DNA of 64,000 nucleotides from NCBI RefSeq assembly GCF_021202945.1, contig NZ_JAJOYR010000001.1:1-64000 (forward strand), written 5' to 3'. Shown one piece after another: positions 49,671 to 53,774 of this stretch. The notes below the pieces were generated by a model, which saw only the letters and a program-made list of their open reading frames with translations, made no database searches and was not told the origin of the DNA. The number at the start of each line of letters is the position of its first letter. The stretch's first letter is position 1. The position numbers and the translations under genes are program-made. The stretch comes from Stenotrophomonas sp. SY1. GTDB lineage: Bacteria; Pseudomonadota; Gammaproteobacteria; Xanthomonadales; Xanthomonadaceae.

Positions 49671-51020
49671 TCATTTCCCGATACAAAAACTCGAAAAGAT
49701 CTTCCCCAGCAGGTCATCGGCGGTCATCCGGCCGGTGATTTCACCCAGTGCGTCGTGGGCCAGGCGCAGCTCTTCGGCGGCCAGCTCAAGCTGATCGTAG
49801 TGCAGCTGCGCATCGGCGACTTCCAGGTGCTCGGCGGCGCTGATGATGGCTTCGACATGGCGCAGGCGCGCGGAGAATTCTCCCTGCATGCCCTCGCCCG
49901 CGCTGTCGCTGGCTATCTCGCGCAGACGCGCGTGCAGTTGCTCCAGCCCTTCACCGTTGGCTGCCGACAGCGCGATGCTGTCGGCGCCCAGATCCTGCGG
50001 CCACTGCGGCAGCAGATCGCATTTGTTGAATATCCACAGCTGGCGCGCGGCTTGTGCCGCGGCATCGCCGATGGCCTGCCGCCCTGCCTCCGGATCGCGC
50101 GCATCCAGCACCACGATGGCCAGGTCGGCGCGCTGCATCTCGGCGCGGGCGCGGCGCATGCCTTCGCGCTCGATGGCATCGCCGCCTTCGCGTAGGCCGG
50201 CCGTGTCCACCAGCTCCAGCTCCAGGCCATCGATGCGAATGGTTTCGCGCAGCGTGTCGCGGGTGGTGCCGGCGATGTCGGTGACGATGGCGCGTTCACT
50301 GCCGGCCAATGCATTGAGCAGCGAACTCTTGCCCGCATTGGGCGGGCCGATCAGCACCGCGTGCAGGCCATCGCGCAGCTTGCGGCCACGCTCGGCATCA
50401 ACGCGCAGTTGCTCCAGCAGCGCGCGCGCCTGTTCAATGCCGGCACGCACTTGCGCGCCGCCCAGTGTATCGAGCGGTTCGTCGGCGAAATCGATGGCCG
50501 CTTCGACATGGATGCGCAAGCGCACGAGTTGCTCGCCCACCTCTTCCACGCGGCGCGAGAACACGCCATCCAGCGAACGCCGCGCGGCGCGTGCGGCGCG
50601 CACGTCGCCCGCCGCGATCAGGTCGGCGATGGCTTCGGCCTGGGCCAGGTCGAGCTTGCCGTTGAGGAAGGCGCGCTCACTGAACTCACCGGCACGCGCC
50701 TGGCGCGCACCCAGCTCGATGCAGCGGGCAAGCAGCTGTCGCAATACGACCGGGCTGCCGTGGCCCTGCAGTTCCACCACGTCCTCGCCGGTGAAGCTGC
50801 GCGGACTGGGGAAGTACAGCGCGATGCCGTCGTCGATCACTTCACCGCTCGCATCGCGGAATTTCGCGTAGTGCGCATGACGTGGCTGCAACGCTGGACA
50901 GCCCAGTTCCATGGCGATGCGTAGCGACTGCGGCCCGGATACACGCAGCATGCCGACGCCACCGGCAGCGGGGCCGCTGGCAATGGCAGCGATGGTCTGG
51001 CCTGTGGACAAGTGGTTCAT
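49671..51020 (-). CDS. mnmE: tRNA modification GTPase MnmE
   Basis: With MnmG, adds the carboxymethylaminomethyl group to U34 of certain tRNAs. The 449-residue product has the N-terminal tetrahydrofolate-binding domain ([21 protein letters not shown]), a helical domain, and an inserted G domain with [28 protein letters not shown] and NKCD. It ends in the invariant C-terminal CIGK motif (FCIGK). Its ATG lies three bases after the stop of the caspase-deacetylase gene, so the two are probably translated from one message. Confidence 0.97.
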
Positions 51021-51023
51021 GGC

Positions 51024-53699
51024 TTATAGCTTCTGCAATTGCGAGCGTGCCTGCGCCGCACCACTGCCCTGCGGTTGCAGTTCCAGGTAGGTGCTGTAGG
51101 CCTGCTTCGCCTTGGCCGTGTCACCGGCATTGAAGTACGCATCGCCCAGGTTGAGGTAGGCCACCGCGCGAGAGGGATCGATCTTCAGGGTGTTCTCCAG
51201 CCAGCGCGCCGCTTCGCTGTAACGCTGCTGCCGGTAGTAGACGAAGCCCAGGTTGTTGGCCGCCTGCGCAAAGTCCGGGCGCAGCTTCAGCGCCTCGGTG
51301 AACTGCGCGACGGCTTCTTCGTAGCGCTTCTCGCGATACAGCTGCAAGCCGCGATCATTGGCCTGCTGCGCGCGTTGGCGGTCGGAGGTCGGCACCGCCG
51401 CCGGCACCACCAGCGTGCTCTTGCCACCTTGCAGGTCGGCCACGGTCACCGGCGCCTCGCCCTTCGGCTTGGCCTCCTGTACCGCTTCAACACGATGATT
51501 GAGCGCAATCGCGTCGGCCGAAAGCTGATCCGTATCGGCGTTGAGGAATTCCTGGCTGTCCGGCACCTGGAACACGAATTCACCGCCCTGCGAACCGGGC
51601 AGGCTGCCGAACGCTGGCGTCTGTCGTGACACCGCCGACACCGCCGGTGCCACATAGGCGGCCAGTTCGGTGCCGGTGATCAGGCCATCACCATTAAGGT
51701 CACCCTTGCCGCCCAGCGCCTGCAGCAGCACCCAGGTGAACACCGAATGCCCGTTCGGGCCGCTGTCGGCCACCTGCTGGTCAGCGCCACCGGCGGTCAG
51801 CATCTGGCGTGCGCTGCGCCGTGCGTTCTCACGTAGAAACGCCGATGACGATGCGCCGGCGCGGGTCAAACCCAGGCCGCTGTAACAGGCATCCATCACG
51901 AACATCACGTGCTTGGCCTGCATGCTCTCGGCGATGTTCTGGATGTCGGTCATCGCGATCGCATCGGTGGCGAACTCGTTGGGGTCCGAATCCACCGGGA
52001 TGATGTAGCCCAGGTCGCGCCCGGAGGCGAGCTGGCGCGTGGCGCCGTGGCCGGCGAAGAACACGAACACGCGGTCGTTCTTGCCGGTGCGCTCATCGGC
52101 CAGGCGGTCGTGGAACGCGGCCAGGATGTTGTTGCGCGTGGCCTGCTGGTTCTTCAGCACGATCACCTGCGAGGATGGGAAGCCGAACTGCCCGGTCAGG
52201 GTATCGGCGATGGCCTGCGCGTCATGGCTGGCGTATTCGAGCCTGGGCCACTTGGCGTAGTCATCGATGCCGATGACGATCGCCCAGGATTTCTCGTAGC
52301 CGGTGGTCACCGTGGCATCGCTGGCTGCGCCCTTGCGCGCACGGCTGACGCTGAAGTCACGGCCGTTCCAGCCGGCGAACTGGTAACCGTCGGCGATCAG
52401 CCGGTCCAGGATCTGCGGCAGTGCCTTCACCGCGCGGTCGTGGATGTCATGGAACAGGATGATGCCCTTCTGCTCCTTCTGCACCTGCTCGACCACGCGC
52501 TGCACGATCGACTCCGGCACCGGGTCGGCCCAGTCCATCGAATCGATGTTCCACATGATCGACTTCAGCCCGGCTTCGTTCAGCAGCTGCAGGCCTTCGG
52601 CATTGCGTGCGCCATACGGGAAGCGGAACAGCGGCGCGCGGCGGCTATCCACACCCTTGAGCAGCGTGTCGGTGGCCAGCACCTGCTCGCGCAGCGCATC
52701 GCCGCTGGTGCGCGACAACTGCGCGTGGGTAAGGCTGTGATTGCCCACCGCATAACCCTGCTCCATCAGGTTGCGGCTGATGCCGGCCATCGGCCCGAGC
52801 TTGACCTGGCCATCGGCCTGCACCGCGCCGATGTTGCGGCCCACTTCGAAGAACACGCCCGGCACGTCATAACGCTTGAGGATGGCCACCACTTCATCGG
52901 TGTAGGCCTTGTGCGGGCCATCGTCGAAGGTCAGCACGACGGTCTTGGCCGGCAGGTCGCGGCCGAAGATCTCGCGCTCGCTGTCCTTCATCGACATCGG
53001 GTACGGCTCGATCACGCCGTAATCACGCAGGATTGCTTCGCGGCTGTACTGCGTGTGCAGGTGCGCGATGTAGTCGTCCCACTTCTCGCGCTTCAACTCG
53101 ATGGCGCGGGTGCGCTCGAAGCGGCTGAAGATCCGGGTGATTTCCTGGTTGTAGTTGCGCTCGATCTCGTCCAGCGCCTCCAGGTCCTCACCGATGCGCT
53201 GGTGCAGCTTCACCGCCGGCAGGGACGAGTCCGCACCGACGCGCTCGTGCAGGTCACGCAGGGTTTCGCGGAACGCCAGGCGGTCGGCGTCATACAACTC
53301 CGGTGCCGATTCGATGTAATCCAGCACCGCGCCCAGCGTGGCGAAACGTTGTGGGCTGGCATCGCGCAACAGACTGTCGAACTGCGCGGCAATGGCTTGG
53401 CGCTGCTCCAGCCCATCGTGGAACAGCTGCTGGCCGATGCGGCTGGAGGTGTTGCGATCGTCCGTCGATTGCTGCGCCTCATCGGCCAGCAACACGATGA
53501 TGCGGCGGTGTCCATCGAGCTGCTTCTGCAACGCTGCCAGCAACGGTGCGGCGGCCGGGTCGGCGACCGCAGCTGCCTGCGCGCTCGGCTGGCTCACCGC
53601 CGGCTGGCCCGGCGCGTCCTGTTTGCCGCATCCCCCGATCAGCAGCGTCAACAGCAGCGAGGGCAACAACAAACGCGGCGACAGCGACACACGGGGCAT
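51024..53699 (-). CDS. lipoprotein with polysaccharide deacetylase, caspase-like, EF-hand and TPR domains
   Basis: An 891-residue multidomain lipoprotein. The lipobox Cys is C24 (IGGC), followed by an Ala/Gln-rich linker and a helical region (about 50-230). A NodB-type deacetylase spans about 250-450: TFDDGPH with D259-D260, metal ligands H321 and H325 in HSLTH, RFPYGARN, and FHDIH at 416-420. A caspase-type (peptidase C14) domain spans about 470-700, with H551 in FFAGHG and C605 in MDACYSG. Inside its C-terminal part is a canonical EF-hand loop (D667 to E678, DLNGDGLITGTE). TPR repeats fill about 770-885. All catalytic residues appear intact. It would be periplasmic or surface-anchored. It precedes mnmE by three bases. 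Substrates and the link between the two enzymes are unknown. Confidence 0.9.
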   Translation of the reverse strand: MPRVSLSPRLLLPSLLLTLLIGGCGKQDAPGQPAVSQPSAQAAAVADPAAAPLLAALQKQLDGHRRIIVLLADEAQQSTDDRNTSSRIGQQLFHDGLEQRQAIAAQFDSLLRDASPQRFATLGAVLDYIESAPELYDADRLAFRETLRDLHERVGADSSLPAVKLHQRIGEDLEALDEIERNYNQEITRIFSRFERTRAIELKREKWDDYIAHLHTQYSREAILRDYGVIEPYPMSMKDSEREIFGRDLPAKTVVLTFDDGPHKAYTDEVVAILKRYDVPGVFFEVGRNIGAVQADGQVKLGPMAGISRNLMEQGYAVGNHSLTHAQLSRTSGDALREQVLATDTLLKGVDSRRAPLFRFPYGARNAEGLQLLNEAGLKSIMWNIDSMDWADPVPESIVQRVVEQVQKEQKGIILFHDIHDRAVKALPQILDRLIADGYQFAGWNGRDFSVSRARKGAASDATVTTGYEKSWAIVIGIDDYAKWPRLEYASHDAQAIADTLTGQFGFPSSQVIVLKNQQATRNNILAAFHDRLADERTGKNDRVFVFFAGHGATRQLASGRDLGYIIPVDSDPNEFATDAIAMTDIQNIAESMQAKHVMFVMDACYSGLGLTRAGASSSAFLRENARRSARQMLTAGGADQQVADSGPNGHSVFTWVLLQALGGKGDLNGDGLITGTELAAYVAPAVSAVSRQTPAFGSLPGSQGGEFVFQVPDSQEFLNADTDQLSADAIALNHRVEAVQEAKPKGEAPVTVADLQGGKSTLVVPAAVPTSDRQRAQQANDRGLQLYREKRYEEAVAQFTEALKLRPDFAQAANNLGFVYYRQQRYSEAARWLENTLKIDPSRAVAYLNLGDAYFNAGDTAKAKQAYSTYLELQPQGSGAAQARSQLQKL

Positions 53700-53750
53700 G
53701 GCGGGCTCGGATTCCGATTCGGGTGCGGGCGATTCTAACGCCGCATGCGA

Positions 53751-53774
53751 AAAGCCCGCCTTGCGGCGGGCTTT
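53751..53774 (-). terminator. hairpin terminator after yidC
   Basis: AAAGCCCGCC pairs with GGCGGGCTTT around TTGC. Read on the minus strand it ends in TTTT, just after the yidC stop, and it separates yidC from the caspase-deacetylase gene. Confidence 0.85.

Follow-up and report, generated by a model that had tools for sequence, protein, structure and literature searches.

A deacetylase–metacaspase–TPR fusion gene between yidC and mnmE of Stenotrophomonas sp. SY1 encodes a predicted exported lipoprotein with a possible role at the cell wall

The window analyzed here, a stretch of 64,000 nucleotides from the genome of Stenotrophomonas sp. SY1, contains on its minus strand a gene for a predicted exported lipoprotein of 891 amino acids, in which open reading frame and Pfam evidence places a polysaccharide deacetylase, a metacaspase and tetratricopeptide repeats (TPRs) in one chain (51024..53699; all features below are on the same strand). 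The open reading frame starts with ATG at position 53699 and runs to 51024 through 891 codons with zero internal stops. The gene order, with names assigned by eye, is rnpA, yidC, the fusion gene and mnmE, whereas dnaA is divergent and lies upstream of rnpA. The frame is unbroken between the deacetylase and the protease, and intact orthologs with 71–93% identity across the full length are present in many genomes. Artifact or misassembly as the source of the fusion is ruled out by the identical frame in many independent genomes.

In the ORF listing, the mnmE gene (49671..51020) begins 3 bp past the stop codon of the fusion gene. On the opposite side, an intrinsic terminator with the sequence AAAGCCCGCC-GCAA-GGCGGGCTTTT (53750..53774) lies past the yidC stop codon and is followed by the hexamer TAGAAT (53732..53737), a candidate −10 box of the fusion gene–mnmE unit that was picked from the sequence and is not among the entries of the scan list. 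A resembling hairpin was found 3' of yidC at all 11 gene-empty sites that were read, and the TAGAAT hexamer also occurs at four of the gene-empty yidC–mnmE sites. Because the terminator and the TAGAAT box lie past yidC, at several empty sites too, it is probable that the fusion gene shares with mnmE a transcription unit separate from yidC. Across the compared loci (L118–L130, corresponding to 53732–53774 of the window), this terminator is conserved with or without the fusion gene, with TAGAAT next to it in several of them.

The original prediction assigned the gene to the mnmE transcript unit and held that it was not recent cargo. The latter claim agrees with the occupation of the same yidC–mnmE site in several genera of the family. 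As for the former, the adjacency to mnmE stands, but the terminator cuts off yidC, and the data give no support for a functional link to mnmE, given that the gene is cleanly missing in 12 sampled congeners and lies away from mnmE in every representative examined outside the family. Clustering of neighbors turned up only lineage-specific genes and no universal partner, and the neighborhoods clustered contain no recurring neighbor pointing to wall metabolism. In a Rhodospirillaceae metagenome-assembled genome (MAG; locus L133), a large lipoprotein ORF resembling bacterial alpha-2-macroglobulin, a protease trap, was noted by eye 9 bp downstream of the fusion gene.

The deacetylase–metacaspase–TPR fusion has been published before. 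The Xanthomonas-type metacaspase of Asplund-Samuelsson et al. (2012; PMC3501461) is composed of a polysaccharide deacetylase, a metacaspase domain and one to three TPRs and was described from Xanthomonas, Xylella and Stenotrophomonas, with two Acidobacteria as the only carriers given outside the family; its conserved catalytic dyad and its trmE (mnmE) operon neighbor were noted as well. The window gene, with all three domains in one protein and mnmE/trmE adjoining, is a member of this type. From a mismatch between 55 kDa and 100 kDa, the same authors suggested autoprocessing. According to their summary of earlier work (PMC3501461), antibodies against caspase and PARP recognize the ortholog from X. 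campestris pv. glycines (GI 88792532), and Xanthomonas mutants deficient in caspase escaped the death process. The terms "EF-hand" and "calcium" are both absent from the main text of that paper, and a search of the open-access literature found neither a lipoprotein nor an EF-hand described for the Xanthomonas-type metacaspase. As far as this search reached, the features added here to the 2012 description are the export signals, a helical N-terminal domain, a calcium loop, the S1-pocket residues, a wider phylogenetic spread and repeated losses with remnants.

The Pfam search returned each of the enzymatic and repeat domains that had been proposed: Polysacc_deac_1 (PF01522) at residues 248–379 (E 8e-25, 87.6 bits versus a cut-off of 23.1), Peptidase_C14 (PF00656) at residues 471–667 (E 3e-23, 83.3 bits versus 21.4) and TPR_2 in the C-terminal region (E 4e-18). 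Likewise, all residues named in the original prediction, namely C24, D259-D260, H321, H325, H551, C605 and the segment D667–E678, occupy the positions given for them. The N-terminus carries a signal peptide with the lipobox LIGG-C24 (residues 1–24; 53628..53699) and Gly at position +2, a residue that carries no inner-membrane retention signal in lipoproteins. The lipobox Cys is kept in 54 of the 54 complete family-level orthologs; outside the family, a lipobox occurs in some lineages only and other export signals are found in others. By plain rules on hydrophobicity and motifs, applied by eye, an export device was recognized in each of the 47 diverse members whose N-terminus is complete (47/47). 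It is a lipobox in some, a Sec-type signal that can be cleaved in others, or else a membrane anchor at the N-terminus, as in several members from the Acidobacteriota. Since these varied devices sit on one common protein body, we argue that the fusion family functions outside the cytoplasm, in agreement with the envelope location initially proposed.

Between the signal and the deacetylase lies a family-specific domain that the original prediction had missed (residues 50–243; 52971..53552). It is conserved in the family and predicted to be all-helical in the AlphaFold2 (AF2) model, and it has no match to any Pfam family and no sequence match to any solved structure. Only three of 299 genomes from the phylum contain this domain, and all three also have the deacetylase and the protease (in G571, in two frames). 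The remaining parts of the chain are the CE4 deacetylase domain, which by Pfam and structure comparison is nearest to peptidoglycan GlcNAc deacetylases (residues 245–450; 52350..52967), the C14 caspase/metacaspase-fold protease domain, delimited with Pfam, the model and Foldseek (residues 466–722; 51534..52304), a linker that is variable in the alignment (residues 723–771; 51387..51533) and the C-terminal TPR region (residues 772–891, with Pfam-detected TPRs at about 775–890; 51027..51386).

For structural comparison we used an AF2 model built from a 49-sequence cross-phylum alignment (pLDDT 80, pTM 0.51), taken for folds only because a pTM of 0.51 leaves the domain arrangement, and hence any gating, unestablished; a model from 23 close orthologs (pLDDT 56) was set aside. 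The deacetylase fold is nearest to the PgdA type and Bd3279, and the protease shares the fold of Yca1, with low confidence around and past C605. The top Foldseek match of the whole model was Bd3279 from Bdellovibrio (PDB 5jp6; 413 columns, TM 0.63 on the target, rmsd 9.9). Like the fusion protein, Bd3279 is exported and combines a CE4 deacetylase of the PgdA type with an N-terminal domain made up of helices only, but it has neither protease nor TPRs and its cap comprises only about 100 residues. By experiment, Bd3279 is a peptidoglycan GlcNAc deacetylase that acts on the prey wall. Its helical cap, reportedly confined to Bdellovibrio and its close relatives, was proposed to serve as a gate of the active site that is "amenable to regulation by proteolysis" (PMC4876506). 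The N-domain profile of the fusion family gave no sequence match to this cap, so we treat the likeness as an analogy and do not claim homology. The CE4 fold and motifs are also shared with PgdA from Streptococcus pneumoniae (2c1g; ~34% identity) and PdaC from B. subtilis (6h8l; ~30% identity), both of which have other accessory domains and no protease.

All five catalytic motifs of the CE4 deacetylase are conserved in the 33 diverse members compared. Motif 1 (TFDDGP) contributes the Asp pair D259-D260, which would serve as catalytic base and metal ligand (52920..52925; kept in 32 of the 32 members with letters there), motif 2, HSLTH within NHSLTH, the metal ligands H321 and H325 (52725..52739; 33/33), and motif 3, RFPY, residues R359–Y362 (52614..52625), with R359 and P361 in 33/33 and a single Phe in place of Y362. 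D389-W390 is included in the conserved set, and motif 5 provides the catalytic-acid His, H417 (52449..52451; 33/33). By CE4 kinship, the putative substrate is the GlcNAc of peptidoglycan; enzymes of the CE4 group are also active on chitin, xylan and other polymers.

The protease has the catalytic His H551 in AGHG (52047..52049) and the catalytic Cys C605 in DACYSG (51885..51887), both in 33/33. The model of this domain aligns with yeast Yca1 (4f6o) over 259–260 columns, 261–268 residues being resolved in Yca1, and it shares with Yca1 and TbMCA2 the fold, the His-Cys dyad and two acidic S1 residues. One of these, D493 (52221..52223), the predicted S1-pocket acid, aligns with the Asp of the Yca1 motif CINDA and with Asp95 of TbMCA2 (PMC4357240); the other, D603, two residues before the catalytic Cys, is the equivalent of TbMCA2 Asp211. 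Each is kept in 33/33 of the diverse set. Residues of this type are held responsible for the preference for a basic P1 residue (PMC4357240, PMC6426788). Because D493 and D603 match these metacaspase acids, the protease is predicted to cut after Arg or Lys, not after Asp.

This specificity bears on the proposal that proteolysis releases the deacetylase. The linker between the two enzymes is variable and unconserved, and in 10 of the 49 diverse members it is devoid of any Lys or Arg, which a metacaspase with basic specificity would need; self-cleavage between deacetylase and protease as a general rule is, on this basis, unlikely, and the proposed release is doubtful. In contrast, the alignment points to the L2/intersubunit loop (51807..51863) as a candidate self-processing region. 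Its residues R613, R628 and R631 correspond to positions with Lys or Arg in 49/49 diverse members and Arg in 33/33, and internal maturation of the protease at these arginines is possible.

The C-terminal part of the protease domain contains an EF-hand-type Ca2+ loop, DLNGDGLITGTE (residues 667–678; 51666..51701), recognized from sequence, alignment and model. It reads D667-L-N-G-D-G-L-I-T-G-T-E678, a canonical 12-residue loop, and it lies between two predicted helices, spanning 610–622 and 633–647 in the AF2 model, whose numbering equals the residue number minus 43. Positions 1, 3, 5 and 12 are D, N/D, D/N and E in 33/33 diverse homologs, position 6 is not Gly in three of the 33, and the ligands D667, N669, D671 and E678 are unchanged in 55 of the 55 family-level orthologs, a degree of conservation that speaks against a chance match. 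Thus, the EF-hand noted originally holds in its canonical loop, its retained ligands and its flanking helices, but the loop is single, with no paired motif, and none of the Pfam EF-hand models exceeded its cut-off (EF-hand_5, 14.1 bits versus 25.9, E 0.033, for a 66-residue piece scanned alone). In caspase topology, this C-terminal connection between helices sits away from the active-site loops. Unlike Yca1 and TbMCA2, the fusion protease combines this loop and an export signal with an incomplete version of the four-Asp Ca2+ site of TbMCA2 (Asp173, 189, 190 and 220). Among the equivalent positions, which were aligned through Yca1 only, D570 is mostly kept, 579 is variable, 580 is A, S, G or C, and 612 is T.

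Loop 667–678 probably binds Ca2+, so one half of the "calcium-controlled" enzyme initially envisaged is plausible, but its role as a switch is doubtful, as the family has not retained the Ca2+ site known from metacaspases. Since Ca2+ is often abundant outside the cytoplasm, the loop is no less likely to be a permanent structural site than a switch. Strict EF loops were also seen 59–67 residues past the catalytic Cys at two caspase-domain loci of a class-level sample (L101 and L103) with shorter ORFs that were not recognized as members of the fusion family, and bacterial caspases may make repeated use of EF-type calcium loops. One study reported EF-hand motifs in seven archaeal orthocaspases.

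The active-site residues D259, D260, H321, H325, R359, H417, H551 and C605 are invariant in 55 orthologs from the same family and again in 33/33, or 32/32 with letters, of the cross-phylum representatives. Purifying selection is strongest on the protease (dN/dS 0.02–0.08, compared with 0.04–0.23 for the deacetylase and 0.18–0.89 for the leader). Because the active-site residues are kept and dN/dS is low, no part of the protein looks decayed. A scan of GTDB species genomes yielded 294 relatives, and the architecture was read in the best 80 of them. The nearest ones with a name come from Stenotrophomonas. The N-domain, deacetylase, protease and TPRs occur in one frame in 73 of these 80, showing how far the exact architecture extends; two others lack only a recognizable N-domain, one lacks only the TPRs at a contig end, and four comprise protease and TPRs only, two of them with the deacetylase half upstream in another frame and two starting at a contig end. 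The carriers belong to the Acidobacteriota, Myxococcota, Thermodesulfobacteriota and the Alpha-, Beta-, Gamma- and Zetaproteobacteria, together with single MAGs provisionally labeled Actinomycetota and Bacteroidota. On the tree, the 6 phyla account for 8 label changes, against a minimum of 5 and a mean of 18 after shuffling, suggesting that the fusion is ancient inside the groups and that some transfer or paralogy occurred as well. At two loci, L083 (G050) and L086 (G759), caspase domains at most ~44% identical to the fusion family, in ORFs of about 600 codons, match the protease half only and are possible relatives of an unfused ancestor.

Strong matches are confined to 35 of 249 genomes and 8 of 54 genera of the family, and a wider phylum sample of 399 genomes yielded 7 with a match at 1e-40, partial matches counted. 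Within the genus, the gene is missing in 8 of the 37 sampled genomes, and in the 12 gene-less congeners checked across all samples the yidC–mnmE gap measures about 110–340 bp. At the yidC–mnmE site of G033 (L120), there is a 76-codon ORF whose start has a lipobox and whose tail resembles that of the fusion gene, whereas a 69-codon ORF of G077 (L122) matches only about the last 20 codons; both look like remnants of loss by internal deletion. Such repeated losses and the sporadic distribution indicate that the gene is dispensable. Frameshifted or interrupted copies in other family genera and MAGs (L124 in G251, L125 in G302, L081 in G151, L131 and L135) reflect either decay or assembly error.

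The reading we favor, with about even confidence, is an envelope-anchored deacetylase of the PgdA type that carries an Arg/Lys-specific protease and a TPR docking arm, and that is not a cytoplasmic death protease. The protein would sit in the periplasm on the outer membrane, as the Gly at +2 suggests, and strip acetyl groups from peptidoglycan GlcNAc, with the helical N-domain perhaps gating the deacetylase site as the Bd3279 cap does. The Ca2+ loop would fix two helices of the protease fold in position. The TPR arm may deliver protein partners to the protease, which would cleave after Arg or Lys. A precedent for such delivery is provided by the pairs LbcA-CtpA and NlpI-Prc, where a TPR lipoprotein guides a periplasmic protease to wall enzymes (PMC12569750); this is an analogy only, since those systems consist of separate chains with unrelated proteases. 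Proteolysis could then adjust wall-modifying partners or mature the protease itself at the L2 loop arginines, and the outcome would be a coupling of deacetylation and wall-protein turnover at one place. A bolder version, in which a Ca2+-loaded, self-contained envelope machine has a helical gate over the deacetylase that is opened by the protease of the same chain or by TPR-bound partners, appears unlikely.

Among the alternatives, action of the deacetylase beyond the cell that makes it, with chitin or chitooligosaccharides, a biofilm polymer or the peptidoglycan of prey or competitors as substrate and with the protease maturing or degrading envelope or foreign proteins there, is the one to be taken most seriously, although we consider it improbable. 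NodB and chitin-deacetylase models also match the domain, many carriers are associated with soil or plants and some, such as Myxococcus and Pyxidicoccus, are predatory, and the activity of Bd3279 on the prey wall (PMC4876506) offers a precedent. However, the lipobox, Sec-signal and membrane-anchored forms all indicate the envelope, the anchor in several Acidobacteriota is hard to fit with a released enzyme, and no recurring secretion or chitin genes were found in the neighborhoods examined. The original model, in which Ca2+ switches on a protease that cuts between the domains and thereby releases or activates the deacetylase, fares worse and seems quite unlikely. It draws on the invariant loop ligands, on the frequent Ca2+ activation and autoprocessing of metacaspases (PMC4357240) and on the 2012 size mismatch (PMC3501461), but it meets the unconserved linker, free of Lys/Arg in 10 of the 49 diverse members, the replacement of the counterparts of TbMCA2 Asp190 and Asp220, and the prospect that extracytoplasmic Ca2+ keeps the loop permanently filled.

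The role of a programmed-cell-death executioner, as proposed for the Xanthomonas ortholog, is in our view a poor fit. The antibody reaction of GI 88792532 and the caspase-deficient mutants, as summarized in PMC3501461, speak for it, but a cross-reacting antibody says little about identity, the lipoboxes of orthologs, including those of related genera, predict a protease outside the cytoplasm, the S1 residues lead one to expect cleavage after Arg/Lys instead of Asp, and the gene is missing from about a fifth of the sampled congeners. An anti-phage defense effector is very improbable: the PADLOC "caspase" model matches residues 470–626, but this match is generic and partial, the protein is predicted to be exported, and the housekeeping position between yidC and mnmE has no sensor or defense genes, nor was a recurring partner found at the other loci examined.

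Bacterial caspase homologs are mostly discussed as intracellular proteases of death or immunity. The protein that has been linked to programmed cell death in Xanthomonas belongs to the present family, which is predicted to be exported in every complete case examined and is fused to a deacetylase of the peptidoglycan type. Together, the features added here favor, without proving, a cell-wall role over a death role, and the two become testable against each other. The wall reading predicts Arg/Lys and not Asp specificity, a periplasmic location, processing inside the protease domain and not between the enzymes, and Ca2+ bound at a loop other than the known metacaspase site. A death role in Xanthomonas is thus doubtful, and, if the gated machine exists, the Xanthomonas cell-death "caspase" would be an enzyme of the cell wall in which the protease, physically joined to a peptidoglycan deacetylase, regulates it.
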